Position numbers and translations under genes: made by a program
Notes under the pieces: model-generated
What the model was told of the DNA's origin: nothing
Databases searched by the model: none
The model's input: only the letters and a program-made list of their open reading frames with translations
Shown here: positions 11,043 through 40,743 of the stretch, in pieces
How positions within the stretch are numbered: the first letter of the stretch is position 1
Layout of the letters: each line of letters opens with the position of its first letter
Source of the DNA: Candidatus Daviesbacteria bacterium
GTDB lineage: Bacteria; Patescibacteriota; Microgenomatia; Daviesbacterales; UBA10151
DNA: 57,937 nucleotides
Direction: 5' to 3'
NCBI GenBank assembly: GCA_021731695.1
Contig: JAKFWZ010000053.1
Coordinates: 1 to 57,937 of the forward strand

Positions 11043-11810
11043 TTAAGTAGTTGCAACTTTCTTCGTATTTCCTTTTTTTGACATAAGAAGATTCAAAATC
11101 AGAATAGCCTCAAACAAACCAATAATTGGTAGTGCGAGCAGGACATCGGCCAGAATTGAGTCTGCGGGAAGAAAAATTACGAAGAAAATAGCAGCTGTAT
11201 AAATCCACTTACGCTGTTTACTGAGCTGTCTGTTATTAATAATACCCAACCGCAAAAGTATCAGCAAAACTATCGGAAACTGAAAAGCAAAACCCATAAG
11301 AACTGATGTTAAAAGTACAGTACTTAAAAGACGGCTGATATCTAAAATGTTTCCTATACCTAAGGAAATGGATTTGGATAAAAATATTTCGATTTGCCAT
11401 TTCATAATAAAAAACCCGAATAAAAATCCTGCCAGAAAAAGGATAAGCGAAACCGGTATGGACCTTACAACCATACTGAATTCTTTTATTTTTAGAGCAG
11501 GCTTGAAGAAAGATAAGACCTGATAAAGGATAAGAGGTAAAGTTAAAATTAATCCGCTGGCGATTCCGCAGCTAATTGCCAGATTAATGAATTGGAATGG
11601 TGAAGTGAAAACGATGTTGATTCCTTTAAGGCTTAAAATCTCAATCAAAAACCTTATTATATTTTCATAAAAAAGAAATCCGACTATTGTTGAAGCTGCA
11701 AAAACACAGGAAGTTAAAATAATCCTTTTTCGTATTTCTTTTAGAAAAGGGGAATATTTTTCGATTATTGTATTGAATTCAGGAAACTGCGAAGGTTGAT
11801 TATTTTCCAT
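11043..11810 (-). CDS. tatC: Sec-independent translocase TatC
   Basis: Six TM segments with TatC-like FSLFKPAL/FxFP pattern; adjacent tatA-like genes. Confidence 0.85.
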   Translation of the reverse strand: MENNQPSQFPEFNTIIEKYSPFLKEIRKRIILTSCVFAASTIVGFLFYENIIRFLIEILSLKGINIVFTSPFQFINLAISCGIASGLILTLPLILYQVLSFFKPALKIKEFSMVVRSIPVSLILFLAGFLFGFFIMKWQIEIFLSKSISLGIGNILDISRLLSTVLLTSVLMGFAFQFPIVLLILLRLGIINNRQLSKQRKWIYTAAIFFVIFLPADSILADVLLALPIIGLFEAILILNLLMSKKGNTKKVATT

Positions 11811-12336: not shown

Positions 12337-12492
12337 TTATGAACTAGAAGACTCGTCTTTAGATGCTTTTTTAAATTCTTTCATAGCTTCGCCCAAGCCT
12401 TTAAAAAGTTCCGGGATTTTTTTACCGCCAAAAAGAAGAACAATTATTAATCCGATTATCAGCCATTCAGTGACACCTATTGATTGAAGCAT
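12337..12492 (-). CDS. tatA: TatA/TatE-like protein (51 aa, not in supplied ORF track)
   Basis: Read by eye: [51 protein letters not shown]. Confidence 0.85.
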
Positions 12493-12510: not shown

Positions 12511-12702
12511 TTAATCTTTGCCGGATTTTGAATCGTCGCTTGCGGCTTTAGCAAATTCTTTTTTAACATTTTTAATTTCTTTAACCGTTTCTCCACTGGT
12601 TCGTGCGAAAGCGGTGATTATTTTGCTTCCAAACAAGAGTAGTAAGATTACAGCAATGATTATAAGTTCAGTAGGACCGATATTTTTTATAAAGTCTAAC
12701 AT
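12511..12702 (-). CDS. TatA-like protein (paralog 2)
   Basis: MLDFIKNIGPTELIIIAVILLLLFGSKIITAFARTSGETVKEIKNVKKEF. Confidence 0.8.
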   Translation of the reverse strand: MLDFIKNIGPTELIIIAVILLLLFGSKIITAFARTSGETVKEIKNVKKEFAKAASDDSKSGKD

Positions 12703-12793
12703 GGTGATTTGATAACTATATAACCTAAATTCTAAAAAGACAAGCAGTCAAAATATGATATATTTTCAAGCCAAAATGTATTTTAAACCTAAA

Positions 12794-12997
12794 TCAATAT
12801 CCGGCGCTCATTGCGGCTGAGTACCAATCCTCACCATCCCAAAATTCTAAATTATTTGTCTGAATATTGAATCCAAAAGTTCCTCTTCTGGGTTTTTTTG
12901 GCCTGGTTTCTGAATTCCATGCGGCTATCGTCGGTAGACCAATCATCATTGATAAACCCTGCCCGAGATTTACAAAATAGGGGTAATTGTTTGCCAT
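12794..12997 (-). CDS. Small 67-aa protein consisting of a GFNIQT module
   Basis: PTIAAWNSETRPKKPRRGTFGFNIQTNNLEFWDGEDWY; same module ends the neighbouring 1731-aa protein. Confidence 0.75.
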   Translation of the reverse strand: MANNYPYFVNLGQGLSMMIGLPTIAAWNSETRPKKPRRGTFGFNIQTNNLEFWDGEDWYSAAMSAGY

Positions 12998-13045
12998 GCG
13001 TTTGAAGTTATTATATAGACCAGAATAACAGGCTTCAAGTAATTA

Positions 13046-16000
13046 CTATTTATACATTCTTAGAATCATCCAGACCACTCCATTCCAATACTCAAGACTC
13101 TTTGTCTGAATATTAAATCCGACTGTTCCCACTTTTGGATTTTTTGGTCGACCGGCCACATTCCACATCGGAATGGTTGGTGCGGAATTTGGCCCTTGCT
13201 GGAATCCGAGAGATTCATTAATTACAAAGTTATTTTTAAGAAAAATAGCAGGTTCCCGCGCAAGCACTTCAAGAGGAGGAAGCGATGGGCTGGGCGAAAT
13301 GGAAGATAAATCTGATGGTTGGGGTGCTGCAGCAGGTGCTGTTGCTGTTGAAGGTCCTGGTGGTCCAGGTGGTGTCGGACTTGGTGAAGGACTTGGTGAA
13401 GGACTTGGTGACGGTGAAACGCTTGTGCTTGGAGGTGGTGGGGCTGAAGGGCTAATAGAAGCAGAAGGTGATTCAGAGGAGCTTGCAGACGGACTTTGTG
13501 AAGCTGATGGGCTTACTGATACTGATGGAGAGACTGATTCGCTTGTTGAACCGGAGGGACTGGTAGATGGACTTTCTGAAACAGAAGGACTCGAGGATGG
13601 TGAAGCAGATGCTGAAGGTGATGTACTCGGGCTTTCGCTAATACTTGGCGAAGCAGACGGACTTTGTGAAGCAGACGGACTTGTTGAGACCGAAGGAGAT
13701 GCGCTAGGAGATGCACTTGGCGAAGCTGATGGAGAAATTGAAACTGATGGAGATGCTGAAGGCGACGCACTGACAGAAGGAGATGCACTTGGCGAAGCTG
13801 ATACAGAAGGTGAAGTCGACGGACTTGCTGACGGTGAAGCAGAAGGAGATGTGCTTGGAGACACAGATGGACTTACAGATGGGCTTAACGATACAGAAGG
13901 AGATGCACTTGGCGAAGCTGATACTGATGGACTGGTTGAAGGAGATGCGCTTACTGAAGGTGATGTTGAGGCTGATGGTGAGGTAGAAGGGCTTTCGCTA
14001 ACACTAGGCGAGGTCGAAGGCGATGCACTGACGGAAGGTGAAACTGAAACACTTGGGCTTGTAGATGGACTTTCTGAAACTGAAGGTGAAGTACTTGGAC
14101 TTGCACTAGCGCTGGGGCTAGTGGAGGCAGACGGGCTTACTGAAGGCGATGCGCTTACTGAAGGTGACGTACTAGGACTTAGTGATGCAGACGGGCTTGT
14201 GGATGGGCTTAATGATACTGAAGGTGATGTACTCGGGCTAGATGATGCAGAAGGTGAAGTTGATACAGAGGGACTAGTTGAAGGACTGGAAGATACCGAA
14301 GGACTTGTTGATACAGATGGGGATGTTGATGGTGAAGCAGATGCTGAAGGTGAAATAGAAACTGAAGGACTTGTTGATGGTGAAGCACTAACAGAAGGAG
14401 ATGTTGAAACTGAAGGTGAAGTTGATGGGCTAGATGAAACAGATGGACTTGTTGAAACTGATGGACTTGTACTTGGGCTTTCAGAGACAGAAGGTGAAAC
14501 AGAAACTGAAGGACTTGTTGATGGTGAAGCACTAACTGAAGGAGATGTTGAAACTGAAGGTGAAGTTGATGGGCTAGATGATACAGAAGGTGAAGTGGAA
14601 ACACTGGGTGAAGTAGATGGCGATGAGCTAACAGATGGTGATGTTGATACTGATGGACTGGTTGAAGGACTGGAACTTACCGAAGGTGAAACTGAAACAC
14701 TCGGACTGGTAGATGGACTTTCTGAAACAGATGGACTTAATGAAGGAGACAGCGAAGGAGACAATGATGGAGAAAGTGAAGGTGAAACCGATACACTAGG
14801 TGAAACTGATGGTGAGGAACTAACTGAAGGAGATGTACTTACAGAAGGACTTGTACTTGGACTTTCAGAGACTGAAGGTGATGTAGAAACTGAAGGACTA
14901 GTGCTTGGACTGGAACTTACTGAAGGTGAAGTTGAAACAGATGGTGACGTAGATGGTGAAGCACTAACAGATGGACTTGTTGAAACTGAAGGACTTGTTG
15001 ATGGTGACGCACTTACTGAAGGAGATGTACTTACAGAAGGACTAGTGCTCGGTGAAGATGATACAGATGGAGAGGTTGATACAGATGGGGATGTTGATGG
15101 TGAAGCACTTACTGAAGGAGATGTAGAAACTGAAGGTGATGTTGATGGGCTAGATGATACAGATGGTGAAGTTGATACAGAAGGTGATGTTGATGGTGAG
15201 GAACTAACTGAAGGAGATGTACTTACAGAAGGACTTGTTGATGGTGAGGAACTAACTGAAGGAGACGTAGAAACAGAAGGACTTGTACTTGGACTTTCAG
15301 AGACTGAAGGAGATGTTGATACTGAGGGACTAGTTGAAGGCGATGCGCTAACAGAGGGTGAGGTAGAAACGCTCGGACTTGTTGATGGTGAGGAACTTAC
15401 TGAAGGAGATGTAGATACTGAAGGTGAAGTACTTGGGCTAGAACTTACAGAAGGTGAAGTTGATACAGATGGGGATGTTGATGGTGAGGAACTAACTGAA
15501 GGAGATGTAGAAACTGAAGGTGAAGTACTTGGACTGGAACTTACCGAAGGTGAAGTGGATACTGAGGGGCTAGTTGAAGGACTGGATGAAACAGATGGAC
15601 TTGTTGAAACAGATGGACTTGTTGAAACAGAAGGACTTGTACTTGGACTTTCAGAGATTGAAGGTGAAGTTGATACTGATGGACTAGTTGAGGGACTGGA
15701 ACTTACTGAAGGTGAAGTTGATACTGATGGACTAGTTGAGGGACTGGAACTTACTGAAGGTGAAGTTGATACTGATGGGGATGTTGATGGTGAAGCACTA
15801 ACAGATGGACTTGTTGAAACAGAAGGACTAGTACTTGGACTGGAACTTACTGAGGGTGAAGTGGAAACACTAGGTGAAGTAGATGGCGATGAGCTAACAG
15901 ATGGTGATGTTGATACTGAAGGACTAGTGCTTGGACTGGAACTTACCGAAGGTGAAGTGGATACTGAGGGGCTAGTTGAAGGACTGGATGAAACAGATGG

Positions 16001-18241
16001 ACTTGTTGAAACAGAAGGACTTGTACTTGGACTTTCAGAGACTGAAGGTGAAGTGGATACTGATGGACTAGTTGAGGGACTGGAACTTACTGAAGGTGAA
16101 GTTGATACTGATGGACTAGTTGAGGGACTGGAACTTACTGAAGGTGAAACTGAAACACTCGGACTGGTAGATGGACTTTCTGAAACAGATGGACTTAATG
16201 AAGGAGAAAGACTTTGGCTAAGCGAAGGACTTAATGAAGGACTAATTGAAACAGAAGGGCTTACTGAAGGCGATTCACTAACTGAAGGTGAAACCGATAC
16301 ACTAGGTGAAACTGATGGTGAAGCACTAACTGAAGGAGATGTAGAAACTGAAGGTGAAGTTGATGGACTAGATGATACAGATGGACTTGTTGAAACTGAT
16401 GGACTTGTACTTGGGCTTTCAGAGACAGAAGGTGAAACAGAAACTGAAGGACTTGTTGAAGGAGATGAACTAACAGAGGGTGAGGTAGAAACGCTCGGAC
16501 TAGTAGAGGGGCTTTCAGAGACTGAAGGAGATGTAGATACTGAAGGTGAAGTACTTGGGCTAGAACTTACTGAGGGTGAAGTTGATACAGATGGTGATGT
16601 TGATGGTGATGCACTAACTGAAGGAGATGTAGAAACTGAAGGTGAAGTTGATGGGCTAGATGAAACAGATGGTGATGTTGATACTGAAGGACTGGTACTT
16701 GGGCTTTCAGAGACTGAAGGACTGACTGAAACCGATGGAGAAACTGAAGGTGAAGCAGATGGCCCTGATGCAACAGTAAAAAGGGCGCCAAAAGTATTCA
16801 TTGTCAAGGCCGTACCTGTTGCGCCTGTTATTAATACATAATTAATCTCGTCAGTTGCTGAAAATGAGTCTGAATTAGAAGAATCCTCAAACCAGCCTGT
16901 CGTATTAGCTGTTATAGAAACGCTTGAGTTAGCAGCCCCCTGATTCTTTCTTATGCTAAAAGTGCTGGCAGCTGAAACAGTATTTGCTGATATATAAATT
17001 TCTAAATTAGAGGCTGTGAAGGACATATTTGCCTCTGCAGATAAATCCGACTCAGTTACGACATTTGGGTTTGCATTTCCTCCAAGCGTTTGGTACCTTG
17101 TCAGGTTAGCGGTTATTGAGCGCCCGGTGCTTCTTCCATTAACTACGTGGAATTTATTCGCGGTCGAGATCATCTCGGTAGAAATAGTTTCAATAACCAG
17201 AGCATTGCTATCTGCCCCCATAACAATGGCGTAGTTAACTAAATCTCCTGAGACTAAAGAATCACTGTTTGAGGTGTCTTCGAAGATTCCTGTAGCTGAA
17301 GCAGTAATAGACACTGACAGGTTTCCGTTGGCAGTATTTACCCTGGATCTGACTGTAGATGTGGTGGTTCTTGCGTTAGAGCTGACATAAACAAAGAGAT
17401 TTTTCCAGGTGAATGAGGCTTTAACTTTAAATTGGTTGAGGGTTTCGTCAGTAGTATTAAGAGGCCCTAAGTAACTTCCTATTAGCGGATAGACAGTACC
17501 ATTGTTGGTAGTAATACTTAGGCCGTTACCAACCACGGCATGGTGGGTAACAGTTAAATCCGAAGAGCCGGTGTAAATTGAGGTTAAGGTGGTGTAAACG
17601 AAGCTACTTCCCCCAGACCCGACAGCTATAGAAGCGTTAACTTCATCACCTGCTAAAATTGAATCAGAGTTGGTGGTGTCCTCGAATTCTCCTGTTGTCG
17701 AGGCTGTTATGGAAACAGACTGATTTCCGTTTGCACCGTTAATACGGCTTCTGAGAGTTGAAGCACCCCTGTCGTTTGATGTTATCCGGATATAGAGCAT
17801 ACTCAGAGTTCCTGCGGTTCTGTAGGTAATCTGGGTATTAGCCTCAGTGGTAACATCGGCACTAATAAGGGTATTTGAGGCTAAAGGGGCATAATAAGTG
17901 GTGCTCGCACTTAAGCTAGTACCATTACCTGCTGAAGCTTGTAAAACTGATGTACCACCAGCTATGCTCGGAGAAACTGAAGGTGATGAGCTTACTGAAG
18001 GACTAGCTGAAGGTGAAATTGAAGGACTGGCTGAAGGTGAAATTGAAGGAGAAACTGAAGATGAAACAGAAGGACTTGCAGAGGCTCCTGCTATAATTGG
18101 ATAATTCTCACCTGGATATATCTGACCTGGATAGTCAGTTCCTATGCCTCCGGCATTATTTGTAGGATTTGTTGGAGCGCTTCCACCACTAGAATTAGCC
18201 TGGCCGGGGTATGCCCCGCCAAACGTGTTAGACCCATACAT
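13046..18241 (-). CDS. Giant surface/fibre-like protein: three related N-terminal domains, about 1100-aa Ser/Pro repeat stalk, C-terminal GFNIQT module
   Basis: Continuous 1731-aa ORF; SPSTSPSVSTSPSVSS repeats; three copies of (S/A)NGNxSVSITAS(T/A)TGxFEDTSNSDS. Confidence 0.9.
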   Translation of the reverse strand: MYGSNTFGGAYPGQANSSGGSAPTNPTNNAGGIGTDYPGQIYPGENYPIIAGASASPSVSSSVSPSISPSASPSISPSASPSVSSSPSVSPSIAGGTSVLQASAGNGTSLSASTTYYAPLASNTLISADVTTEANTQITYRTAGTLSMLYIRITSNDRGASTLRSRINGANGNQSVSITASTTGEFEDTTNSDSILAGDEVNASIAVGSGGSSFVYTTLTSIYTGSSDLTVTHHAVVGNGLSITTNNGTVYPLIGSYLGPLNTTDETLNQFKVKASFTWKNLFVYVSSNARTTTSTVRSRVNTANGNLSVSITASATGIFEDTSNSDSLVSGDLVNYAIVMGADSNALVIETISTEMISTANKFHVVNGRSTGRSITANLTRYQTLGGNANPNVVTESDLSAEANMSFTASNLEIYISANTVSAASTFSIRKNQGAANSSVSITANTTGWFEDSSNSDSFSATDEINYVLITGATGTALTMNTFGALFTVASGPSASPSVSPSVSVSPSVSESPSTSPSVSTSPSVSSSPSTSPSVSTSPSVSASPSTSPSVSTSPSVSSSPSTSPSVSTSPSVSESPSTSPSVSTSPSVSSSPSTSPSVSVSPSVSESPSTSPSVSTSPSVSSSPSTSPSVSTSPSVSASPSVSPSVSVSPSVSESPSVSPSVSISPSLSPSLSQSLSPSLSPSVSESPSTSPSVSVSPSVSSSPSTSPSVSTSPSVSSSPSTSPSVSTSPSVSESPSTSPSVSTSPSVSSSPSTSPSVSTSPSVSSSPSTSPSVSTSPSVSSSPSTSPSVSTSPSVSSSPSTSPSVSTSPSVSASPSTSPSVSTSPSVSSSPSTSPSVSTSPSVSSSPSTSPSVSTSPSISESPSTSPSVSTSPSVSTSPSVSSSPSTSPSVSTSPSVSSSPSTSPSVSTSPSVSSSPSTSPSVSTSPSVSSSPSTSPSVSTSPSVSSSPSTSPSVSTSPSVSASPSTSPSVSTSPSVSESPSTSPSVSTSPSVSSSPSTSPSVSTSPSVSSSPSTSPSVSTSPSVSSSPSTSPSVSTSPSVSASPSTSPSVSTSPSVSSSPSTSPSVSTSPSVSASPSTSPSVSTSPSVSASPSTSPSVSTSPSVSSSPSTSPSVSTSPSVSESPSTSPSVSTSPSVSSSPSVSPSVSVSPSLSPSLSPSLSPSLSPSVSESPSTSPSVSVSPSVSSSPSTSPSVSTSPSVSSSPSTSPSVSTSPSVSSSPSTSPSVSTSPSVSASPSTSPSVSVSPSVSESPSTSPSVSTSPSVSSSPSTSPSVSTSPSVSASPSTSPSVSISPSASASPSTSPSVSTSPSVSSSPSTSPSVSTSPSASSSPSTSPSVSLSPSTSPSASLSPSTSPSVSASPSVSPSASTSPSASASPSTSPSVSESPSTSPSVSVSPSVSASPSTSPSVSESPSTSPSASTSPSVSASPSTSPSVSASPSASPSVSLSPSVSPSVSPSTSPSASPSASPSTSPSVSASPSASPSVSASPSASPSVSISPSASPSASPSASPSVSTSPSASQSPSASPSISESPSTSPSASASPSSSPSVSESPSTSPSGSTSESVSPSVSVSPSASQSPSASSSESPSASISPSAPPPPSTSVSPSPSPSPSPSPSPTPPGPPGPSTATAPAAAPQPSDLSSISPSPSLPPLEVLAREPAIFLKNNFVINESLGFQQGPNSAPTIPMWNVAGRPKNPKVGTVGFNIQTKSLEYWNGVVWMILRMYK
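13350..16770. repeat. Degenerate tandem repeat encoding Ser-Pro-rich 16-aa units
   Basis: Repeated ACTTGTTGAAGGACTGGAACTTACTGAAGGTGAAGT-like units on + strand. Confidence 0.95.
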
Positions 18242-18421
18242 ATTCTATTCAAGTCTAGCATTCAGAAGAGGTTTTCGCGATCCTTATGAAGGAGTTATTT
18301 CAAATAAAGAACTTTGTTCATTTTCGGGCGAAAAACTATGTCTCTGGAAGATTAATGTAGAACAAGAGAAACCGCGGACATTATAATTTCTTTTAGAAAT
18401 TGGGGTGTTTGATGTGGAGTC

Positions 18422-19000
18422 TCACTTTTTTAGAAGTACTGCCTGAATATCCATGACTACATTTGTATAATGTCTTACTGCAAAGGCTTTTGATTCTTCG
18501 CTTCGCATTGCCCAGTCAGGAGTGAAATCATAGCCATACGAATAGTCGAAATCGCATGTTATTGGATAATGATCGAGCTTGTTTGCCTCTCTCCAGCCTT
18601 TATTATAATAAAGAAAAGTAGCCTCGCTGATTGCTCTGGTATGAGTTGGATCCTGCCAGGCTCGCATTGAGTTGTAATAAGGAGCGCGGATTATGGCTGT
18701 AGCTCCGGGAGCCATAATTCTGTATAACTCATTCATGAAAGCAATTAAATCTTTTGTGTGTTCAATATAGTGATTACAGACTATCTCATCAACACTATTG
18801 TCCGGAAAAGGCCAGGGGAATTTTTCTAAATCCCAAACTATATCAGTATCTTTTGTGTCTGCGATATCAACCCCGAAAAAGCCCGGAGTTTTATTTGATC
18901 CGCAGGCAATATCAAGCCTGAAGGGGTGGAGAAGCTCGTGGGTTTTGCCGTTTGCTTTGACTTTAATTATATTTGGGTTTTCTTCTTTTTTCTTGGCCAT
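18422..19000 (-). CDS. Class I SAM-dependent methyltransferase-like protein
   Basis: LDIACGSNKTPGFFGVDIADTKDTDIVWDLEKFPWPFPDNSVDEIVCNHYIEH. Confidence 0.85.
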   Translation of the reverse strand: MAKKKEENPNIIKVKANGKTHELLHPFRLDIACGSNKTPGFFGVDIADTKDTDIVWDLEKFPWPFPDNSVDEIVCNHYIEHTKDLIAFMNELYRIMAPGATAIIRAPYYNSMRAWQDPTHTRAISEATFLYYNKGWREANKLDHYPITCDFDYSYGYDFTPDWAMRSEESKAFAVRHYTNVVMDIQAVLLKK

Positions 19001-19027
19001 GTTTATTTGGTTTTAGGTTAGTGGGTC

Positions 19028-19105
19028 AGGAAGCTGGTATGGTTTAGGGGTTAAGGTTGCTGGGCTTCTCTTTATTCTTAAACCCAACTTCCATACCAGC
19101 TTCCT
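19028..19105. repeat. Inverted repeat, 15-bp perfect arms
   Basis: AGGAAGCTGGTATGG (19028-19042) / CCATACCAGCTTCCT (19091-19105). Confidence 0.85.
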
Positions 19106-19124
19106 AACCATATACCTTTTTTGC

Positions 19125-19859
19125 TCACCAGACTATATCACTGTCTGCATCATAATGTCCAACTTTGACTCTGGTATCGCATGCTACCTTATAGCCTAGT
19201 TTATGTATATTTTCAAAAAAATAAAGATCCTGCGTATAGCCTCTGGCGCCGACTCCGGGTTTATATTCCTGTAAAGTCTTAAACCAGGGCTTTGGAACTT
19301 TTGGATCCTTAAAAATATCCAATTTAAATAATGTAAAACCCATGCCGAGTCCGTTGCATTCCTGAATTGTTTCCGGCTGGGGAATCTGGGGGATAAAGGT
19401 TAGGGGGATTTCGTGAGGATTGCCGTAAATCATAGGCTGGCCGAGTTCGCCCTTTGTCCAATATAGTCCGCCGATTGCATCAAACTTATCCATATTCTCG
19501 TATAGCTTTAAGAGTCCGTCCGGAGGAGGCATGTTGTCTTCTTCTAAAGTTAAAATATATTTCCACTGCGATAAGTTCGGATCGGCTAAAATTCCCTCGA
19601 TCATGTTTGTATAAGCGGCTCCAACTTCCATACCGATTGCAAACATTCTGATGAATTTTTGGTTCATCGGAGTGAAAAGCGCCCACCAATTTTGGATAAC
19701 CTTTGCGTGGACCATTCCCCGGGTAGGGATAATGCAGATAGTGGAGAGGTCCTGATATGTTTGAGATCTTGCAAGTCTCTCGCCCGCAGCTTTAAGATCG
19801 CTATTATGTCTGCCCTGATAATTATCAACAACAATCTGAGGTTTTACTGTACTATTCAT
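19125..19859 (-). CDS. Glycosyltransferase-like protein
   Basis: CIIPTRGMVHAKVIQNWW...KYILTLEEDNMPPPDGLLKLYENMDKFDAIGGLYWTKGE. Confidence 0.7.
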   Translation of the reverse strand: MNSTVKPQIVVDNYQGRHNSDLKAAGERLARSQTYQDLSTICIIPTRGMVHAKVIQNWWALFTPMNQKFIRMFAIGMEVGAAYTNMIEGILADPNLSQWKYILTLEEDNMPPPDGLLKLYENMDKFDAIGGLYWTKGELGQPMIYGNPHEIPLTFIPQIPQPETIQECNGLGMGFTLFKLDIFKDPKVPKPWFKTLQEYKPGVGARGYTQDLYFFENIHKLGYKVACDTRVKVGHYDADSDIVW

Positions 19860-19922
19860 ATTTACTTGATTACTGCGCAGGTACCGCTTCGCAGCTGATC
19901 ATTTTTCGGAGTATAGCAAATA

Positions 19923-21083
19923 CTATGTCGAAACGAAAGTGACTGCAGGCAGGATGGTTGCTGTTGAGCCCGCGCCTCCTGTTGTGCCTAGTTCGGATAA
20001 CGTAATGGCGCTCGGAATTGCATTACCTCCAAAGCCTGCCCTAGCTGTGTTTGTTAAGAATCCGACAATATGCCGTCCCCACCATGCGGTTTGGTTTGCG
20101 TTATTAGCACTCCAGGCTGTTGAAGCCGATCCGATAGGCATTAAGGATCCCGAGACCATATTTACCGGGTGGATTGGTTGACCTACAAGTCCAGCCAGAC
20201 TTAAACCATTAGTTGAGACTGTATTGGCAGTGCTCCTTAGGCGTAATAGGCCTAAATAATATTGTCCACCTGTTAAGGTGAAATTTCCACCAAATTGCAT
20301 TCCAATGATTCGTGAACCAGAGATATAGGACGATATATTGTTTGTGGATGAAAAGCTCGATGTTTGATAACCCCACGCAGATGTAGCTGTGGTCTGGGGA
20401 AAATTCCAGGTTATACTTCGGCTGCTTACTGATTCTCCAATAGAAAAAGAACTTGAGCTCATAAGGCTTAATGCAGTATCACCATTCATAGTATAAAGAC
20501 CATAATACGAGTAATACGTATTACTGCCCGAAGTATTAGATGTCAGTGTGATATAAGAGTAAGAATTACCGATAAGTATTTGATTAAATTGTAAGTTTGG
20601 GGGAACCGTAACCGGAAAAACAAATAGCGAATTGGTACCAATAAGCGATGTAGCGCCCAAGGTTTGAAATCCTGTTTGCGCAACTCCGGCAATAGCCAAA
20701 GGTTCCCAATAACTGATCGGATCGTTAACGTCATCGATTGTTTTATCAGTAATGCCGGCAGCTATCTGGTCGCCTACGACAATAGTCCGGTTAACGCTGG
20801 TATTGTTTGGTTCGCCTGTTGCTCCGTCTGCGCGGATAACAGTCAAGGTATCATCTTGGATATTGGTCACTCTGACAATCTCAGCAGTGGTTGCAGTACT
20901 GCCAGTCAGTGTTGGCTGTGCCCCGGTAGGCCAGATTGTGGCATTAAAAGGCGGAGAAGGGAATAAGATGCCCTGTCCATACTGAACGGTTATTGAAGTA
21001 CCGGAAGTTCCCGGATCGCTTCCGTTAGGGGAAGTCGTTCCGGTTACCGATGAATATGCAAAATTTTTATGTGCGTCAGCCAT
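19923..21083 (-). CDS. Phage tail-fibre/virion-structural-like surface protein, paralog 1
   Basis: N-terminal HKNFAYSSVTG...GQGILFPSPPFNATIWPTGAQPT..EIVRVTNIQDDTLTVIRADGATGEP..VVGDQIAA. Confidence 0.7.
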   Translation of the reverse strand: MADAHKNFAYSSVTGTTSPNGSDPGTSGTSITVQYGQGILFPSPPFNATIWPTGAQPTLTGSTATTAEIVRVTNIQDDTLTVIRADGATGEPNNTSVNRTIVVGDQIAAGITDKTIDDVNDPISYWEPLAIAGVAQTGFQTLGATSLIGTNSLFVFPVTVPPNLQFNQILIGNSYSYITLTSNTSGSNTYYSYYGLYTMNGDTALSLMSSSSFSIGESVSSRSITWNFPQTTATSAWGYQTSSFSSTNNISSYISGSRIIGMQFGGNFTLTGGQYYLGLLRLRSTANTVSTNGLSLAGLVGQPIHPVNMVSGSLMPIGSASTAWSANNANQTAWWGRHIVGFLTNTARAGFGGNAIPSAITLSELGTTGGAGSTATILPAVTFVST

Positions 21084-21167
21084 ATTTAATTATAAAATCA
21101 AAGGTCAAAAGTCAAAAATCAAAAGTTCAAGTTAAAAATCAAAACTTTTAACTTTTAACTTCCTTTC

Positions 21168-22283
21168 TTATGTCATTACATTTGATTGTAAAGTTACAGC
21201 AGGTAAGACAGTGGCGATTGAGGCTGCAGCACTTGCGCCTAGGGCGCTGAGATGGATGCTTGCCGGAATCGTTGAACCTCCGAAATTAGCAAGGGAAGTA
21301 GCGGTTACAAAGGCAAGCATGTGACGCCCCCACCAGAGACTTGAATTACTTCGATTAGTTCCCCAAGAGGATGCTGCAAATCCGATAGGATTGTAACCGC
21401 TGATACTTCCTACGAGGTGATATGGATCAACCGGCTTGCCGATTACTCCGGCGACACTCATTCCGTTTGTGCTGTTATTTGCTGTGCTTCTAATTGACAT
21501 CACTCCCATATAATAAATCCCGTTTGTCAGATGCATTTCGCTGCCAAATTGTAAACCAAACCATCTGGTTCCTGAAATATAGTTGACTATTTGGGCAGTG
21601 TTTGACATGGCAAGCGTATCATACCCATAGCCACTGGTATTAGTGGTGGTTGCAAAGCTCCAGGTACGGCTTAGAGTGTTAAATGACTCGGCCATTGAAA
21701 AAGATCCGTTTGCCATCAGTGAAAGGGCAGTAGAAGCATTCATTGTATACAGCCCGAAATAAGAATAGTAAGAAGCACTCCCTTGTGCACTGCCTGTTAC
21801 ATAAGACACTGAAACAGGTAAAACCGCCTGATTAAACTGGACATTACCGTTGACTGTAACCGGAAATACGAGAAGGGATCCGCTGGAGGATTGTCCGGAA
21901 GCAGACGCAAGTGTTTGTAAGGCGGAACCTGCAGCTGAGGAAAAAATATAGGGCGACCAACTAGCAACGGGATTTTCAACCTCTTCCAAAGTTTTGGTAG
22001 TGATTGTTGCGGCAATTTGATCCCCAACTAAGATACCCCGTCTTGAACTCCCTTCCTGTGCTCTGGTAATAGTGAAAGTATCGGTTGATATTGCAGTTAC
22101 CCGAACAATCTCGGCATTGCCTGAAGTTGGTTGTGCGCTGGCAGGCCAGATGGTTGCATTAAAAGGAACAGCAGGGAATAAGGCTCCCTGTCCTGAACTT
22201 ACCACTAAACTTGTTCCCTTCGTTGTCGGTGAAGGAGCGGTCAAAACTGTTGAATATGCGAAATTTTTATGTGCGTCAGCCAT
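21168..22283 (-). CDS. Phage tail-fibre/virion-structural-like surface protein, paralog 2
   Basis: HKNFAYSTVLTAPSPTTKGTSLVVSSGQGALFPAVPFNATIWP...ITRAQEGSSRRGILVGDQIAATIT. Confidence 0.7.
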   Translation of the reverse strand: MADAHKNFAYSTVLTAPSPTTKGTSLVVSSGQGALFPAVPFNATIWPASAQPTSGNAEIVRVTAISTDTFTITRAQEGSSRRGILVGDQIAATITTKTLEEVENPVASWSPYIFSSAAGSALQTLASASGQSSSGSLLVFPVTVNGNVQFNQAVLPVSVSYVTGSAQGSASYYSYFGLYTMNASTALSLMANGSFSMAESFNTLSRTWSFATTTNTSGYGYDTLAMSNTAQIVNYISGTRWFGLQFGSEMHLTNGIYYMGVMSIRSTANNSTNGMSVAGVIGKPVDPYHLVGSISGYNPIGFAASSWGTNRSNSSLWWGRHMLAFVTATSLANFGGSTIPASIHLSALGASAAASIATVLPAVTLQSNVMT

Positions 22284-22302
22284 GTAGTGAAATTATGACA
22301 AA

Positions 22303-22569
22303 TTAAATTTTTCTACTTTCATATAAATAATCCTTAATCCTTCTTTTGATAAGCCGACCTCCTTGTGTTGTCTTCAGATATTTTTCTCTTCGCTCGGCAT
22401 CGCTTTTTTCAATGCATGCTTCATAGTATATAAGTTTCCAGGGCATATATCTTTTAGTAGAAAAATTTAATCCATTATTATGTTCTACTAGCCGTTTTTT
22501 TAAGTCCGCTGTATATCCAATATAATGTTCTTTATTAGTCTCGCTTTCTAAAATGTAGACGTAGAACAT
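22303..22569 (-). CDS. GIY-YIG nuclease family protein
   Basis: MFYVYILESETNKEHYIGYTADLKKRLVEHNNG. Confidence 0.9.
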   Translation of the reverse strand: MFYVYILESETNKEHYIGYTADLKKRLVEHNNGLNFSTKRYMPWKLIYYEACIEKSDAERREKYLKTTQGGRLIKRRIKDYLYESRKI

Positions 22570-22612
22570 AAGTCATAATTCTACTACATGGTCTGCCATT
22601 TTTTTATTAATT

Positions 22613-22741
22613 TACCAAGTAACAAGATACAAGTTTTCCAAATAAATTCCAAATTCTAAATCTTAATATTCAAACTTTTTGGTACTTGTGATTTGATTCT
22701 TGGTTATTGTTTGTTCCTTGTTCCTTGTATCTTGGTTATTT
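22613..22741. repeat. MITE-like imperfect inverted repeat, copy 1
   Basis: CCAAGTAACAAGATACAAG ... CTTGTATCTTGGTTATT with AT-rich CAAATTCT/AATATTCAAA core; similar to 57294-57421. Confidence 0.65.
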
Positions 22742-22745
22742 CATT

Positions 22746-23876
22746 TTAGGTGCTTACCAAGCTTACTAAAGGTAAAACGGTTGCTATTGTGTTGGCGGTT
22801 TGGAAGTTTGCAAGTTCTATAGCACTCGGTAGTCTCGTGCCTCCATATCCCGCCTGCTGGGTATTGGTAACAAACCCCATGATAAATCTGCCATTCCAGC
22901 CGGAAATATCGACGTTACTTTGAGCAAATTCACCCGGACCAAAACCTAGAGGATTCAGCCCGCTCGCGCTCCCCGCCATATTAATTGGGTTGATCACCTG
23001 TCCGATTAATCCGGCATGGGAAAATCCGATAGAGGAAACTCCTCCGGCAGTACTTCTGTAGGTAAGCAGCGCCAGCCAATACATTCCGGCGCTTAAACTC
23101 ATCTCTCCACCAAATTGCAGTCCGACTTTGCGTGCACCTGCAACATAGCTTGAGCCTTGAGCTACAGCAGTTATAGCACCTAAGTTGCCGTTGCCATAAC
23201 CATATCCACTTGTTGCGGTCGAGGTTGGAAAATTAGACGTAAAACTTACGCCTGAATTTGAATCAAGAATACTAAAAGAGCTGGACGAAATAAGAGCCAT
23301 GGTGTTAGATGTCATACTATAAATTCCAAAATTGGAAAAATATGTATTGCTGGCCGCGGTATTAGAAGTCATATAGGATTGAGATTGCGCAATAATAACC
23401 TGATTGAATTTAATCGGGAAGGGGATGGTCATCGGGAAGGCATAAATACTTCCTGTGCCTGTAGTGCTCGAATTTGCTGCCAGAGTCTGGACTCCGGTTC
23501 CGGCTGAAACCGCAATAGCAGGTGACCAGCTGTTTATATAATTTGCCTCAAGATCAGTAAAAAGTTTGGCGGTAACAGTCGCAGCAACTTGATCGCCTAC
23601 AACAATACTGCGCACACTAGAACCTTCTTGCTGAGCGCGAGGATCAGATCCTGGGGATAAGGTAAATGTGTCAGTCGCAATGGATGTAACTCTAACAATT
23701 TCTGCATTAGCAGTTGTTGGTTGTGATCCACTTGGCCAGACTGTTGCATTAAAAGGTGGAGTAGGAAATTTTGCTCCGTCTCCTGATTGAACAACTAACG
23801 TAAATCCAGTAGTTGCTGGGGAAGGAGCGGTTGCTACTGTTGAATATGCGAAATTTTTATAATCGTCTAGAGCCAT
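22746..23876 (-). CDS. Phage tail-fibre/virion-structural-like surface protein, paralog 3
   Basis: YKNFAYSTVATAPSPATTGFTLVVQSGDGAKFPTPPFNATVWPSGSQPTTANAEIVRVTSIATDTFTL. Confidence 0.7.
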   Translation of the reverse strand: MALDDYKNFAYSTVATAPSPATTGFTLVVQSGDGAKFPTPPFNATVWPSGSQPTTANAEIVRVTSIATDTFTLSPGSDPRAQQEGSSVRSIVVGDQVAATVTAKLFTDLEANYINSWSPAIAVSAGTGVQTLAANSSTTGTGSIYAFPMTIPFPIKFNQVIIAQSQSYMTSNTAASNTYFSNFGIYSMTSNTMALISSSSFSILDSNSGVSFTSNFPTSTATSGYGYGNGNLGAITAVAQGSSYVAGARKVGLQFGGEMSLSAGMYWLALLTYRSTAGGVSSIGFSHAGLIGQVINPINMAGSASGLNPLGFGPGEFAQSNVDISGWNGRFIMGFVTNTQQAGYGGTRLPSAIELANFQTANTIATVLPLVSLVST

Positions 23877-23941
23877 ACATTGATCATTATAAAGCCTTAG
23901 TTAAATTTTTCCAGAGTTAAGTCAGGCAATAATTCAGAAAT

Positions 23942-24127
23942 TTACGGGTTTGCAGGCTCATCTTTCGCAGCATCAATAATTTCCTTCTTTATTTTTTTAA
24001 CCTCTTTAAAAGTTTCTCCGCCTTTTTTCGCCATATCAGATATAGTGTTGGCACCAAAAAGAATAACTAGTACCAGCAGGATGATAATGAGTTCAGTTGA
24101 GCTGATGTTCTTTATGAAATCGAACAT
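23942..24127 (-). CDS. TatA-like protein (paralog 3)
   Basis: MFDFIKNISSTELIIILLVLVILFGANTISDMAKKGGETFKEVKKIKKEI. Confidence 0.78.
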   Translation of the reverse strand: MFDFIKNISSTELIIILLVLVILFGANTISDMAKKGGETFKEVKKIKKEIIDAAKDEPANP

Positions 24128-24190: not shown

Positions 24191-24249
24191 CGTTATTCGT
24201 TATTCGTTATTCGTTATTCGTTATTCGTTATTCGTTATTCGTTATTCGC
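24191..24249. repeat. Heptanucleotide tandem array (GTTATTC)n
   Basis: Direct reading; overlaps stop codon of the 24242-26272 gene. Confidence 0.97.
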
Positions 24250-26272
24250 TATGAATCCACTTCTTGTTTTCTTCAAGTAAATTGCGGGTAAGCTCAGGGG
24301 AGTAGTTGAGACTTTCAGCCCAGGCACACCAGGCATAAATATCTTTAGGAATGCACTTTGAATTAAAGCCGCGTTTATCAGGAAAAACGAACGTCCACCA
24401 TAAATTAAATCGGGGATCGTCTCCATAAACTGCATCGCGAATGGTGTAGTAATCAATCCCGGCTTTTTCGCAGACATCATAAAGCTCCTGACATTGTGCA
24501 ACTTTAAAAGCGATAGCTCTATTTTCTGTGAGCTTAATTACTTCAGCCTCATAAGAAGTAACCTGTCTGATTTTAATATTGGCATTATAAACCGTTGCAT
24601 AAAGGTCGATTAACATTCTTCGGTCTTCTGGCGCGCCCCCAAGGATTAAAAATGGAACATTTTTTTCATCAAAAAGGGGGTGTTGTGCAGTTTCACCAAG
24701 ATATTCGGGCTGTATAACAATTCTTTTATTATATTTTTTGGATAAATAATCGCCAGTTCCGGGATTTACCGTCGATCTGATAACTATCAGCGGGGACTCG
24801 CTCCAGGCGACGCATTCTTCGACAATGCTTATATCTAAAGCTCCTTCGCCGATAGATGGAGTAGGCACGCAAATGAAAGCCACATCCGCCTGATTGGCTT
24901 TACTTTTGCTTCTTGATGCAGGCGGGTTATAAATATAGGCGTCAGGGAAGAGCCTGTGAACTGATTTTCCCACCCAGCCGTGTCCAATGATTGTTACTGT
25001 CATGGCCGGAGTTACCTTTCTTGGCCTGCCTCGTCCAGGTCTGGATTCTGTAGTACTTGTTAAGGGTTCAGATTCTTCAGGTTCTCCAGAGATAATATTT
25101 ATTTCTTCCTCAGCTTCTAAAGATTCGAGCTGTTTTTCATCATTAGCCACTAGTGGAGTAATTGTGATTTCGCTTTCGACTTGCTCTGCCGTTGTTTCGT
25201 TTGGAGTTGAAACTGTTGCCTGAATTTCATCTTTTGCGCCAACCACATTTTCTAAAGGCTCACTTTCTACCGGTTTAGGCTCCGCGTTTTCTTTAAATTC
25301 AAAAGTATTTGCTTTAAGTTTTGCTAAATCTTCATCAGTCCAGCCTCTAATCGGCCAGAATTTTTCAACCAGCCAGCTTAAGGGTCGAATTTGTTTATCC
25401 CAATTATTATCAAAAAACAGACTTCTAGCATATGCCTTGGCTTTTTCCTGATCTCTGTTTGAAATAGGATAGGGAAAACCAAAATCTCCGCCCTGAGTTC
25501 TGAACATATGAGCGTACCAGGTGTTTTGGTTAACTAAAACTTTGCCTCCCGAAAGCCAGGTTTTACATGCCACTTCAATTCCCTGAGAGCCCCAGCTGCC
25601 GAACTTTTCATCGCAGATATTAAGCTCGTTGTATTTTTCGCGGGTTAGCATCCAGCAGGAACCCTGAAGCGACATAGTTTCTGTTAATCCTTTTTCTTTT
25701 TTGTCAGTCTCATATTTTGGCCTGTGTTTCCAATCTTCAAAATATTGAAAGTGGGGGGTTGAGTCAAAACAATAAGAAGTGCTTCGCGGATTATTTTTTC
25801 CAACCCACATCATTTTTCTTCTTAAACGATCAGTTTTTCCGCACTGCTCGCATTTTTCTGGAGTTGGTCCCTGATATTTTTTCCATCCGCAGTGATAACA
25901 TTTCCAATCAAAAGCCCATAGATTCCTCATTACAGGCACCATGGTTGTATCGTCACCGGCGACTTTAAATGCCTCAATCATCTTACGGTCAAAGCCTTTA
26001 TCAAATGAGCAATGTGCATCGCATTTCATAACATATTTGGCTTTAGAGAGTTTGCAGGCTAGATTTGTGGCAGCTCTTTGGCCGATGCTCTTCGGCACAT
26101 AAATTACATTAACTCTGTCGTTTTGGGGGATAGATGGATCCGCCCATTTGCCGTCTAAGACTGCAATAACTTCTGTATCAGCTTCGATGTTGGAGAGAAT
26201 ATCTTCAATAGTTCGGCCTAAAAACATTTCATTGCGACTAGGAATTAATATGCTCAGGTCTCGTGCGGACAT
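24242..26272 (-). CDS. Fusion: N-terminal GT2 glycosyltransferase with zinc ribbon and C-terminal UDP-glucose/ManNAc dehydrogenase-like domain
   Basis: LSILIPSRNEMFLGRTIEDIL...CYHCGW..CEQCGK; C-terminal VTIIGHGWVGKSVHRLFPDAYIYN...VAFICVPTP...IVIRSTVNPGT. Confidence 0.88.
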   Translation of the reverse strand: MSARDLSILIPSRNEMFLGRTIEDILSNIEADTEVIAVLDGKWADPSIPQNDRVNVIYVPKSIGQRAATNLACKLSKAKYVMKCDAHCSFDKGFDRKMIEAFKVAGDDTTMVPVMRNLWAFDWKCYHCGWKKYQGPTPEKCEQCGKTDRLRRKMMWVGKNNPRSTSYCFDSTPHFQYFEDWKHRPKYETDKKEKGLTETMSLQGSCWMLTREKYNELNICDEKFGSWGSQGIEVACKTWLSGGKVLVNQNTWYAHMFRTQGGDFGFPYPISNRDQEKAKAYARSLFFDNNWDKQIRPLSWLVEKFWPIRGWTDEDLAKLKANTFEFKENAEPKPVESEPLENVVGAKDEIQATVSTPNETTAEQVESEITITPLVANDEKQLESLEAEEEINIISGEPEESEPLTSTTESRPGRGRPRKVTPAMTVTIIGHGWVGKSVHRLFPDAYIYNPPASRSKSKANQADVAFICVPTPSIGEGALDISIVEECVAWSESPLIVIRSTVNPGTGDYLSKKYNKRIVIQPEYLGETAQHPLFDEKNVPFLILGGAPEDRRMLIDLYATVYNANIKIRQVTSYEAEVIKLTENRAIAFKVAQCQELYDVCEKAGIDYYTIRDAVYGDDPRFNLWWTFVFPDKRGFNSKCIPKDIYAWCAWAESLNYSPELTRNLLEENKKWIHSE

Positions 26273-26320: not shown

Positions 26321-27187
26321 TTACTTTAAATTTTTGTATAGTTGGGCTATTTTGTCGATGTGATATTCCTCCGCCCTTTCAATACACAGTTCGGAAAATG
26401 CCTTGTAACGCTCGGGATACTTGATTAACAGGTCGAGTTCGCTGAACAGCTGATCGGTTTTGTTTACGCCTATATAACAGTTTCCCAGATCCTTAAAATG
26501 ACTTTCGTCAAGAGCAATTGTCGGAATTCCGAATGAGGCGGCATTAACAATTTTTAAGGGATTGGCGAGGTTTTTTTTATAAGGCCTCCAGACAACTTGA
26601 ATGTCTATTTTTTTATAGAAATCAATTATATCTTCCCGCGAAAAAAAATTCGAGAATTCAATCAATTTTATACCGCGTTCCCTCAATCGTAGTTTCAGAT
26701 CCGGGGGCAAAAAAGAAAAGGCCTTTGCATTTCCGATCACTCCTGCAACTGTGATCTTTTTTCGTGTTCTTTTTTCGCGATTGAAATTGCAATGATGCTG
26801 AGGGATGTGAACTATTTTGTTTTTAAGTCCCTGAGTGGACAAATTTATGTAGTCTCTTTGTGATAATACAATTGCTCCAACTTCAGGATATTTTTTTAAC
26901 TGTTCGATGTAGCCGATTTCGTCAATTATGTCCAGGTATGCACTTTTTCCTTCGAATCTATAATCGCCTGAGGAATTAGGATTTGGTTTGACATAGATAC
27001 AGACATCGTTTTTATAGCCCTTAGTTGGGTTCAATTTCGCGCCAATAGCTTCGGCTATTTGATCGGCGCGGATTATTGAGGAGACTCTTTTTAAGTAACC
27101 ATTAGCAGGTTTCTTGTTGCCAGAATCATACTCTTGTGAAGGTTGGGTACTTAAAAAAGCTCTTTTGGCAAATATTGAGATAGCCAT
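26321..27187 (-). CDS. Glycosyltransferase-like protein (group 1 type)
   Basis: RRKKITVAGVIGNAKAFSFLPPDLKLRL...NPLKIVNAASFGIPTIALDESHFKDLG. Confidence 0.6.
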   Translation of the reverse strand: MAISIFAKRAFLSTQPSQEYDSGNKKPANGYLKRVSSIIRADQIAEAIGAKLNPTKGYKNDVCIYVKPNPNSSGDYRFEGKSAYLDIIDEIGYIEQLKKYPEVGAIVLSQRDYINLSTQGLKNKIVHIPQHHCNFNREKRTRKKITVAGVIGNAKAFSFLPPDLKLRLRERGIKLIEFSNFFSREDIIDFYKKIDIQVVWRPYKKNLANPLKIVNAASFGIPTIALDESHFKDLGNCYIGVNKTDQLFSELDLLIKYPERYKAFSELCIERAEEYHIDKIAQLYKNLK

Positions 27188-27897
27188 TAGAGATTGAAGA
27201 GCTCCTTTAGATTCCAGCCGGGTATTTTATCAAGAGTAGTTGTTTTGAGATTAACAGGTGGATGTTTAAAGCTATCCAGAGTAACCTTTGTCGGGGAGAA
27301 AGTTTTACCATGTCTGATGTCAATGATTGGTTCTTTTGATGCCCAGACTTCAAAATTATCATCAGTAAATCCGCCCCGTTTAATTTTCTTTGTGCCTGGT
27401 TCATACCCCCAGCGCCTTGCCCATAAAGGTTCGTGCCCTATAACTGACTCGAGATTTAACTCTTCTATTTTATTAAGTCGGGATTTATAATGATTAAGGG
27501 CAAGTTCCCGGTTGACGCAAAGACCAGAGAGGCAAATTAATCTATCGTAAGTGATTGCATAATCATCGGGATATTTCCATCTCCAAACATTATTGTTGTA
27601 ATAAAAAATATTATCTTTTGGCGGTTGATACTCAAAGTGGGAAGCAGGGTAGAGAACGTCGTGTTCACAGAAAAATACATAATCTTCTTTGGCGTTTTCA
27701 AGGGCTGTGGTAATTTGTTTTGTCATAGTTATAAAACTCGGGGTTAGATTTAAAACTATATTATTTCCAAAATTGATTGGTTTGAGGGACACACTCGTTA
27801 CGGGTAATCCGGAGGACTGAATTGTTTGCTGGACTATAGAGAAAATAGGCTCGTTTAACCTATTATCAGTATAATAAATTATTCCTTTGCTACTCAT
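27187..27897 (-). CDS. Glycosyltransferase-like protein, paralogous to 32433-33113
   Basis: GIIYYTDNRLNEPIFSIVQQTIQSSGLPVTSVSLKPINFG...DYVFFCEHDVLYPASHFEYQPP. Confidence 0.6.
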   Translation of the reverse strand: MSSKGIIYYTDNRLNEPIFSIVQQTIQSSGLPVTSVSLKPINFGNNIVLNLTPSFITMTKQITTALENAKEDYVFFCEHDVLYPASHFEYQPPKDNIFYYNNNVWRWKYPDDYAITYDRLICLSGLCVNRELALNHYKSRLNKIEELNLESVIGHEPLWARRWGYEPGTKKIKRGGFTDDNFEVWASKEPIIDIRHGKTFSPTKVTLDSFKHPPVNLKTTTLDKIPGWNLKELFNL

Positions 27898-28429
27898 GTT
27901 TTTTTCTTACGACCACCAGCCAGTCGTCATACCTTTCTTTACGGCGGTTTAGTTTAGGGACTTCTATCTCGTAAGCGGTCAGGCTCTTTATGATATTTAA
28001 GTCTGCAACATCTTCGATAATATAAATGACATCGTCTTTGAGTAGAGGCATAAGAGTGAGGCAGGTTAGGATTTGATCCTCTGGTTTGTGGGAGCCGTCT
28101 TCAACTACAAAATCCAAATCTGCCCCGGTTTTTTTAATTAACTCTCGTAGATTCTTTTCGGAAGAGTGGTCGCATTTTATAACTTCTATCCGATTATCTT
28201 TAAAAATACGTTTATCATCTATTTCCGCTCCATATATCATTGCATTGGGGAAAAAATCTCTCCACATTCTAAGGCCTGGACCTTCACCGACTCCTATTTC
28301 AAGAACTTTTTTAATTGACTTACGCTCGTTACTGAACAAATCAGAGTAATAGGGGGTATAGCTGTGTTTTGAACCCGGATGCCTGTCGGTGCCGTATTTT
28401 TTTGCAAGTATGGTTAGGTCGTCGTTCAT
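27890..28429 (-). CDS. Class I SAM methyltransferase-like protein
   Basis: YGTDRHPGSKHSYTPYYSDLF...VLEIGVGEGPGLRMWRDFFPNAMIYGAEID...VEDGSHKPEDQ. Confidence 0.75.
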   Translation of the reverse strand: MNDDLTILAKKYGTDRHPGSKHSYTPYYSDLFSNERKSIKKVLEIGVGEGPGLRMWRDFFPNAMIYGAEIDDKRIFKDNRIEVIKCDHSSEKNLRELIKKTGADLDFVVEDGSHKPEDQILTCLTLMPLLKDDVIYIIEDVADLNIIKSLTAYEIEVPKLNRRKERYDDWLVVVRKKHE

Positions 28430-28430
28430 C

Positions 28431-29048: not shown

Positions 29049-29131
29049 TGTTAGTAGTTATGAGTTATGGATAATGAGTTATGAGTGGGGAGTTTGTAGA
29101 ATTTGTTTAACTCCTAACTCCTAACTCATAA

Positions 29132-29755: not shown

Positions 29756-29811
29756 AGTTAGTTAGTTAGTTAGTTAGTTTTGCGATGAACGAATAACGAA
29801 TAACGAACTAA

Positions 29812-30426: not shown

Positions 30427-30544
30427 CCCGTTAGAAGCAGATCGCGATCAATCTATCGATGACCGGCTCCTTTCTTATTAATTCCATATAGTCTTTTATT
30501 ATCATAATCTAATGCGTCCTGCGATCGCGGCTTCTAACGGGATC
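30427..30544. repeat. Element with 12-bp terminal inverted repeats
   Basis: CCCGTTAGAAGC (30427-30438) ... GCTTCTAACGGG near 30530-30541. Confidence 0.75.
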
Positions 30545-30829: not shown

Positions 30830-30865
30830 AATTTAGTACGGGATCATAGTTTCTTAGGCAGGGTA

Positions 30866-34339: not shown

Positions 34340-34343
34340 GAAT

Positions 34344-37006: not shown

Positions 37007-37015
37007 TATGTTGTA

Positions 37016-37037
37016 ATATCACAAAATTGTGATATAA
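37016..37037 (+). promoter_or_regulatory. Operator palindrome overlapping -10 box between toxin and antitoxin
   Basis: ATATCACAA-AA-TTGTGATAT (37016-37035) overlapping TATAAT (37032-37037). Confidence 0.7.
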
Positions 37038-37047
37038 TGAATTTAAT

Positions 37048-38557: not shown

Positions 38558-38594
38558 AATTTCGTTAATCGTTGCCTCCGAAGGAGGGGTGTAT

Positions 38595-39533: not shown

Positions 39534-39579
39534 AGAGTTTTTTTATCAGACTCTTTTTTCCCACATCAGGCTAGAACTG

Positions 39580-40710: not shown

Positions 40711-40743
40711 TGTGCTATTATACCCGCGCTTACCCTAATTACT

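Follow-up and report, generated by a model that had tools for sequence, protein, structure and literature searches.

A small uncultivated patescibacterium, Candidatus Daviesbacteria bacterium, carries tail-fibre genes of phage origin and a giant stalk gene close to the genes of the Tat translocase (the machinery that exports folded proteins), and a similar pairing recurs across its class, which suggests that these cells may wear phage parts on their surface, probably to stick to other cells. The region analysed (here, the window) is the whole 57,937-nt stretch of contig JAKFWZ010000053.1 (assembly GCA_021731695.1). A first-pass annotation, made from the sequence alone, had noticed three paralogous fibre-like proteins, a Ser/Pro-rich stalk and extra TatA-like genes, and had inferred a cell-encoded adhesion or fibre system exported by an unrecognised route that might use the extra TatA-like proteins. 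What it had observed proved to be real, with every ORF found where it had been placed, on the minus strand; how it had interpreted this was only partly supported, because the association is with the complete Tat system including TatC rather than with stray TatA-like genes, because the fibres are accessory whereas GFN67, tatA, tatC and a gene that we call g42 are what is conserved, and because the route is not wholly unrecognised, a plausible Tat substrate (the g42 product) being linked to it.

The three fibre paralogues, each of c. 375 aa (P1, 19923–21083; P2, 21168–22283; P3, 22746–23876; all minus strand), are 49–54% identical over their whole length, and not only in the N-terminal module (HKNFAYS...PFNATxWP...EIVRVT...VGDQIAA) to which attention had first been drawn. 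This module is of a phage tail-fibre type: it matches PHROG 8469, 'tail fiber protein' (E 9e-14 for P2, more weakly for P1 and P3), and the tail fibre of phage GP4 (PDB 8jov; E 4e-10 by sequence, and Foldseek E 2.5e-5, probability 1.00, with the predicted fold), and it has relatives on 118 IMG/VR contigs. The C-terminal c. 250 aa differ from those fibres. In an AlphaFold model of P2 only about the first 95 residues were confident (mean pLDDT 53), so the C-terminal fold is unresolved and Foldseek matches other than 8jov carry no weight. No fibre homologues were found in 57 relatives or in 329 genomes of the class, and because the fibres were thus not the conserved part of the locus, the GFN module (below) and g42 were used for wider searches instead.

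Downstream of the fibres lie GT19 (19125–19859, minus strand), a glycosyltransferase-like gene (PHROG 1574 and a weak glycosyltransferase match) whose product is 44–58% identical to phage homologues, and MT18 (18422–19000, minus strand), a methyltransferase by both Pfam and PHROG matches, homologues of which follow the fibre in phage contigs. The order fibre, glycosyltransferase, methyltransferase, 'YFG' gene is shared with phage contigs (the loci labelled L004, L041 and L011 in our set), so this part of the locus came from phages. It might therefore be supposed that the locus is a decayed prophage or a recent phage insertion without cellular function, and the rarity of the fibres in genomes would fit this idea, but we consider it very unlikely: the ORFs are long and intact, the three paralogues are diverged but full-length, the core described below is conserved across many genera, and no TatA, g42 or GFN was present in the phage loci retrieved. 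Neither a terminase (phrog_2) nor a portal gene (PF04860) was found anywhere in the genome (other portal families, and capsid families, were not searched genome-wide), and the fibres are in this respect not part of a recognisable virion.

The conserved core comprises GFN67, tatA, tatC and g42. The stalk gene (13046–18241, minus strand) encodes 1731 aa, comprising a YFG-like start, three related head repeats (residues 96–490), about 1,100 residues of Ser/Pro repeat and a C-terminal GFN module, which an alignment showed to be shared, as had been proposed, with a 67-aa protein, GFN67 (12794–12997, minus strand). An AlphaFold model of the head repeat was poor (mean pLDDT 36) and was not used for structural searches. 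Next come tatA2 (12511–12702, minus strand), of a second TatA-family type and possibly encoding a TatB-like receptor (an inference), tatA1 (12337–12492, minus strand), of the canonical TatA type (GGKKIPEL), and tatC (11043–11810, minus strand; PF00902 above cut-off). The products of tatA2 and tatA1 score 38.9 and 65 bits against the Pfam TatA_B_E (PF02416) cut-off of 21, as does that of a third gene, tatA3 (23942–24127, minus strand; 36.8 bits), which is of the TatA2 type and lies beside fibre P3, a position seen only in this genome. These three are the only TatA-family genes of the genome, which thus has both components, TatA-family proteins and TatC, expected of a Tat system. The first-pass annotation had named in advance a lack of conserved association between homologues and TatA-like genes as the result that would count against its reading, and the outcome was the opposite: the exact order stalk–GFN67–tatA2–tatA1–tatC is found in 11 patescibacterial genomes, with different stalk heads (several of the stalks being broken at contig ends), which supports a cell-encoded system rather than a prophage. 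The GFN system goes with TatC in 10 of 11 genomes and with g42 in 11 of 11.

The fibres, the stalk and GFN67 have no obvious export signal, as had been stated, but the linked gene g42 (42258–42917, minus strand), which had been overlooked, encodes a predicted Tat substrate, with two transmembrane helices, a conserved [K/R]-R-x-F-L-K motif (DKRAFLK in the window), a third helix followed by positive charges, and a conserved C-terminal domain. This is the plan of published dual Sec/Tat membrane proteins such as the actinobacterial Rieske protein Sco2149, in which helices inserted by Sec are followed by an internal twin-arginine motif, a weaker last helix and positive charges (PMC5449189), although g42 has no known cofactor domain (and no Pfam hit). 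Such proteins have an even number of helices before the motif, and g42 fits this plan: in a simple hydropathy scan most g42 relatives had two helices before the motif and two longer ones had four, while one long relative gave three and two gave fewer than two; the last helix of one fell under the threshold, and a K/R pair followed the last helix in 24 of 27. Measured against the twin-arginine consensus S-R-R-x-F-L-K, the motif leaves the assignment undecided: [KR]-R-x-F is present in 27 of 27 relatives, but as RR in 14 and as KR in 13, the window copy being KR, and replacement of a twin arginine by lysine is described as poorly tolerated (PMC7317946). Tat-dependent translocation was not assayed. 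The C-terminal domain was found only on g42 relatives in the loci examined, and neither g42 nor the GFN module gave relatives in IMG/VR, though with so few short search patterns this is weak evidence of absence.

Among 310 genomes of the class, TatC was found in 41 and g42 in 43, and they coincide in 33 (genus-level p about 1e-21, a value that ignores relatedness); ten g42 genomes show no TatC. Where the two share a contig (23 of 33) they lie 2–32 kb apart. Tat loci without GFN67 encode other phage-virion-type proteins in the same place, between g42 and tatAC. PHROGs gave nothing for most of the giant proteins of these loci, but in IMG/VR scans two of the families had full-length relatives (a third had none), and others are of beta-helix or glycine-rich tail-fibre types.

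We think it somewhat more likely than not that the locus determines a cell-encoded surface apparatus built from domesticated phage fibre proteins and tied to the cell's Tat translocase, and that Tat in this class serves such an apparatus. In this view, phage-derived fibre and stalk proteins are made without a signal and fold in the cytoplasm, where the linked enzymes may glycosylate the stalk; they are then brought to the Tat translocon through the GFN module, GFN67 and a TatA2-type receptor, or by hitchhiking on g42 (Tat export of signal-less partners being an established mechanism: PMC10924467), and are held at the surface as long adhesive fibres with exchangeable heads. g42 itself would be inserted like a dual Sec/Tat protein, its first two helices by Sec, and its third helix and C-terminal domain by Tat. 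Our analysis shows the phage ancestry of the fibre cassette, the conserved core, the co-occurrence and physical linkage of TatC with g42, and the Tat-type motif, whereas the Tat dependence of g42, the export of fibres and stalk by hitchhiking, glycosylation, surface display and adhesion are inferred. No physical contact of the fibres, stalk or GFN67 with g42 or TatA has been shown, nor has any partner cell, and a 1731-aa protein with a long low-complexity stretch would be an unusual Tat cargo. An alternative, less likely but possible, is that Tat exports only g42, and that the phage-type fibres are neighbours for another reason and reach the surface by another route or are released by lysis. 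Among the cluster proteins only g42 carries a Tat-type motif, and a virion/tail-spike-like protein (34984–36291, minus strand; phrog_6002, phrog_23837 and phrog_4636), with a homologue in another genome of our set (G068), begins with what looks by eye like a Sec signal, so Sec may serve part of the cluster; but the stalk and GFN67 directly precede tatA2 in 11 genomes, and unrelated virion-type families recur between g42 and tatAC in others.

It is also conceivable, though unlikely, that this is a targeting or decoy device rather than an adhesin, the fibres aiming the cell at prey bacteria for a separate delivery system, or binding up phages or their receptors. Receptor binding is the job of phage fibres, a cultivated patescibacterium needs adhesins and a secretion system for epibiotic growth (PMC10633639), and the cassette-bearing phage contigs are 61–64% GC, compared with 40% here, which would fit phages of other hosts. 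However, no effector or injection gene was recognised among the window proteins searched, and the partner cell is not known. A bolder form of our main reading, which we think rather less likely than not but more likely than these alternatives, is that the Tat translocase is devoted across this class to the display of domesticated phage fibre and spike proteins, with signal-less, pre-folded phage proteins crossing by hitchhiking on a dual Sec/Tat anchor or through an extra TatA-type receptor, and with heads renewed by capture from phages of other bacteria (twin-arginine proteins were not counted genome-wide).

We found no paper joining Patescibacteria, TatA and tail fibres, in a literature search that did not extend to preprints or most subscription papers. 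The proposed apparatus resembles in outline the serine-rich repeat protein adhesins, in which a long Ser-rich stalk with a separate head is encoded in a cluster with glycosyltransferases and an export machinery, accessory Sec (SecA2/SecY2) (PMC6973325). Here, however, the linked export genes are Tat, no aSec signal or LPXTG anchor is seen in the stalk, the heads differ between genomes (some being of phage type), the cluster also has methyl- and carbamoyltransferases, and there were no SecA2/SecY2 or Asp genes among the cluster proteins scanned with Pfam (the rest of the genome was not searched for them). Tailocins and extracellular contractile injection systems are likewise phage tail parts kept by a cell, but only fibre and spike-type proteins, and no tube, sheath or baseplate gene, were recognised among the window proteins searched, without a dedicated search. 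Our interpretation offers a job for the Tat system reported in Microgenomatia and other patescibacterial classes (PMC9166423), for which we saw no substrates given, and a candidate attachment apparatus for ultra-small bacteria whose partners are mostly unknown. If the fibres are exported by Tat, cells would have a way to display phage receptor-binding proteins without building a tail, with heads replaceable by horizontal transfer, so that partner range might be read from fibre sequences.

The cluster also contains glycan and modification genes. GT24 (24242–26272, minus strand) is a family 2 glycosyltransferase fused to a UDP-glucose dehydrogenase-like half, and its homologues lie next to or near the stalk gene in other genomes. 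At 26321–34919 (minus strand) lie glycan/modification genes identified with Pfam and PHROGs (methyltransferases, a carbamoyltransferase at 30866–32443, an asparagine-synthase-like gene at 33110–34339 and others), which are partly syntenic in two other loci (L091 and L092), and at 37344–41436 lie further glycan genes (GT2, epimerase and nucleotidyltransferase, with 40744–41436 on the plus strand). A GT2 glycosyltransferase gene (41433–42212, minus strand) is next to g42, as it is in G068 and two further genomes (G249 and G261). Just upstream of g42, a gene at 42920–43987 (minus strand) encodes a protein with a double MerR helix-turn-helix, a transmembrane segment and an SH3b domain, and an SH3-type partner is also found upstream of g42 in other genomes.

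The observation made in the first-pass annotation, of three tail-fibre-like paralogues, a Ser/Pro-repeat stalk, a small protein sharing the C-terminal GFN module of the stalk, and TatA-like genes, is borne out: the ORFs named there are all present on the minus strand. The three paralogues (P1–P3) are 49–54% identical over full length. Their N-terminal c. 100 residues are a phage tail-fibre module, matching PHROG 8469, PDB 8jov (both by sequence and by predicted fold), 118 IMG/VR contigs and, with 70% identity over 99 residues, a tail-fibre gene of an environmental phage, whereas the C-terminal c. 250 residues were not resolved by structure prediction. The fibres are absent from 57 relatives and from 329 genomes of the class; a scan of a genome collection found five contigs, four of them with cluster homologues of the window and three labelled Patescibacteria or Levyibacteriota.

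One part of the locus is of phage origin. In two phage contigs (L004 and L041), a fibre with the same N-terminal module is followed directly by a homologue of GT19 (a glycosyltransferase-like gene of the window), a homologue of MT18 (a methyltransferase gene) and a small gene; in a third (L011), the same genes occur in the same order, with two genes between fibre and GT19, and a fourth (L022) has the first three in order. The small gene starts MFGGNYFGSPYLGQ in L041, and looser forms of this start occur in L004 and L011. The window has P1, GT19, MT18 and stalk in that order, and the stalk of a relative, L091, starts MFGANYFGHPYFAQAYP, although the start of the window's own stalk (MYGSNTFGGAYPGQ) is a weaker likeness; genes of this YFG type also occur near fibres in further phage contigs. 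Stretches of L004, L041 and L011 are 61–64% GC, compared with 40% for the window, which suggests, but does not show, phages of another host. The UDP-glucose-dehydrogenase-like half (24242–25342) of GT24, a fused glycosyltransferase gene of the cluster, has 50 relatives in IMG/VR contigs, up to 77% identical over part of its length.

Another part is a cellular core. Two hot-spring MAGs carry a largely syntenic cluster (L091 and L092). In the genome of L091, the cluster runs off a contig inside the Ser/Pro repeat, and another contig that ends in such a repeat carries the C-terminal end of the stalk, GFN67 (the stand-alone 67-aa GFN protein), tatA2, tatA1 and tatC; that the two contigs join is inferred. 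A third genome, G337, has the same order. A profile of the GFN module gave strong matches in 11 of 310 genomes of the class, and reading of those regions shows GFN67-tatA2-tatA1-tatC with a stalk upstream in genomes G000, G036, G068, G077, G152, G249, G255, G261 and G288, which with G335 and G337 makes 11 (in the window, one unrelated 138-aa ORF lies between tatA1 and tatC). G274 has a variant, and in G123 there are a stalk, a shorter GFN67 and g42 (see below), but no TatC was found. Stalk heads differ between genomes, and some match phage tail-fibre families. In a sample of 287 from the phylum, the module was found only in this class, which we infer to be Microgenomatia: one relative is Levyibacteriota (Microgenomates group), and Tat has been reported in Microgenomatia, Paceibacteria and Saccharimonadia (PMC9166423).

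A candidate Tat substrate, missed in the first-pass annotation, is encoded at 42258–42917. This protein (g42) belongs to a family found in 43 of 310 genomes of the class. All 27 relatives examined keep [K/R]-R-x-F with a hydrophobic stretch after it, 24 have a K/R pair behind that stretch, and most have two helices before the motif. This is the plan of dual Sec/Tat proteins, in which Sec inserts the first helices and Tat the last one (PMC5449189). The motif is RR in 14 relatives and KR in 13, and KR in the window copy, so that the sequences leave undecided whether g42 has a genuine twin-arginine motif; its translocation was not assayed. The SH3-type protein upstream of g42 has different N-terminal parts in different genomes: a double MerR helix-turn-helix in the window (42920–43987), but elsewhere (L158 6726–7796, L146 4038–5162 and L165 2765–3811) a sequence that looks by eye, without a database search, like a REP-associated transposase.

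TatC is present in 41 of 310 genomes of the class, and coincides with g42 in 33 (Fisher P = 4e-28; by genus, 28 shared of 35 and 38, P = 1e-21); the GFN system goes with TatC in 10 of 11 genomes and with g42 in 11 of 11. Relatedness makes these P-values optimistic, but the genera span many families. In 23 of the 33 genomes, g42 and tatC lie on one contig, 2–32 kb apart (median 15 kb); on four long contigs alone, the product of chances is about 2e-6.

In genomes whose Tat loci lack GFN67, the regions between or around g42 and tatAC encode large proteins of other phage-virion types without evident signals. One has 57 IMG/VR relatives, the best at 47% identity over full length, another has six, with up to 48% identity, and some are of right-handed beta-helix or glycine-rich tail-fibre types. 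TatA-family genes number two to seven per genome in the stretches read, with seven (L331 and L332 of G143) and five (L325 of G151) clustered around tatC in small genomes. No TatA, g42 or GFN was found in the phage loci that were retrieved. Of the eight genomes with TatC but without g42, three (G098, G189 and G197) were viewed at short range. In G098 and G189, TatA and TatC stand beside a 58–72-aa protein with an R-K-E-F-L motif and a spike-like protein, and G337 has a similar set on a second contig, while the G197 stretch ends at TatC. This second kind of Tat locus, which was not surveyed, comprises TatA, TatC, a small membrane protein with an RKEFL motif and a C-terminal GxGPYG or GGAYGA tail, and then a signal-less spike-like protein (seen in L184 1288–3618, L188 1–2344 and L098 (G337:C144); the L182 stretch, 1242–2319, ends at TatC). 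In G274, a 403-aa protein (L174 6663–7874) has an N-terminal LTRRDFFKVAGAAAAGAF Tat-type signal near the Tat genes, so that in this genome Tat has at least one other likely substrate.

How might such a system work? The parts themselves, the ancestry of the fibre cassette, the conservation of the core and the linkage of TatC with g42 are shown by the sequences analysed; what follows is inference. In this view, Tat inserts g42, and the fibres and stalk, lacking signals, would cross either by hitchhiking, a mechanism known for signal-less partners (PMC10924467), or through a TatA2-type receptor that recognises GFN67; linked glycosyltransferases and other enzymes would decorate the stalk, and the result would be an adhesive surface fibre. 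The nearest functional analogue is the SRRP/accessory-Sec adhesin locus (PMC6973325), which is not homologous. The earlier proposal of a cell-encoded adhesion or fibre system, exported by an unrecognised route that may use extra TatA-like proteins, is supported in part, and extended. The solid element is the conserved linkage of Tat with phage-type fibre proteins, which is, as far as our searches go, undescribed; the mechanism is a hypothesis.

The cluster also contains small genes of other kinds. One (30509–30829) is a GIY-YIG gene by Pfam, and another (22303–22569, not searched), lying between two fibres, looks similar by eye. On the plus strand at 36485–37320, inside the glycan cluster, a Gp49-like (DUF891) gene is followed by a helix-turn-helix gene, and the two are probably a toxin–antitoxin pair.
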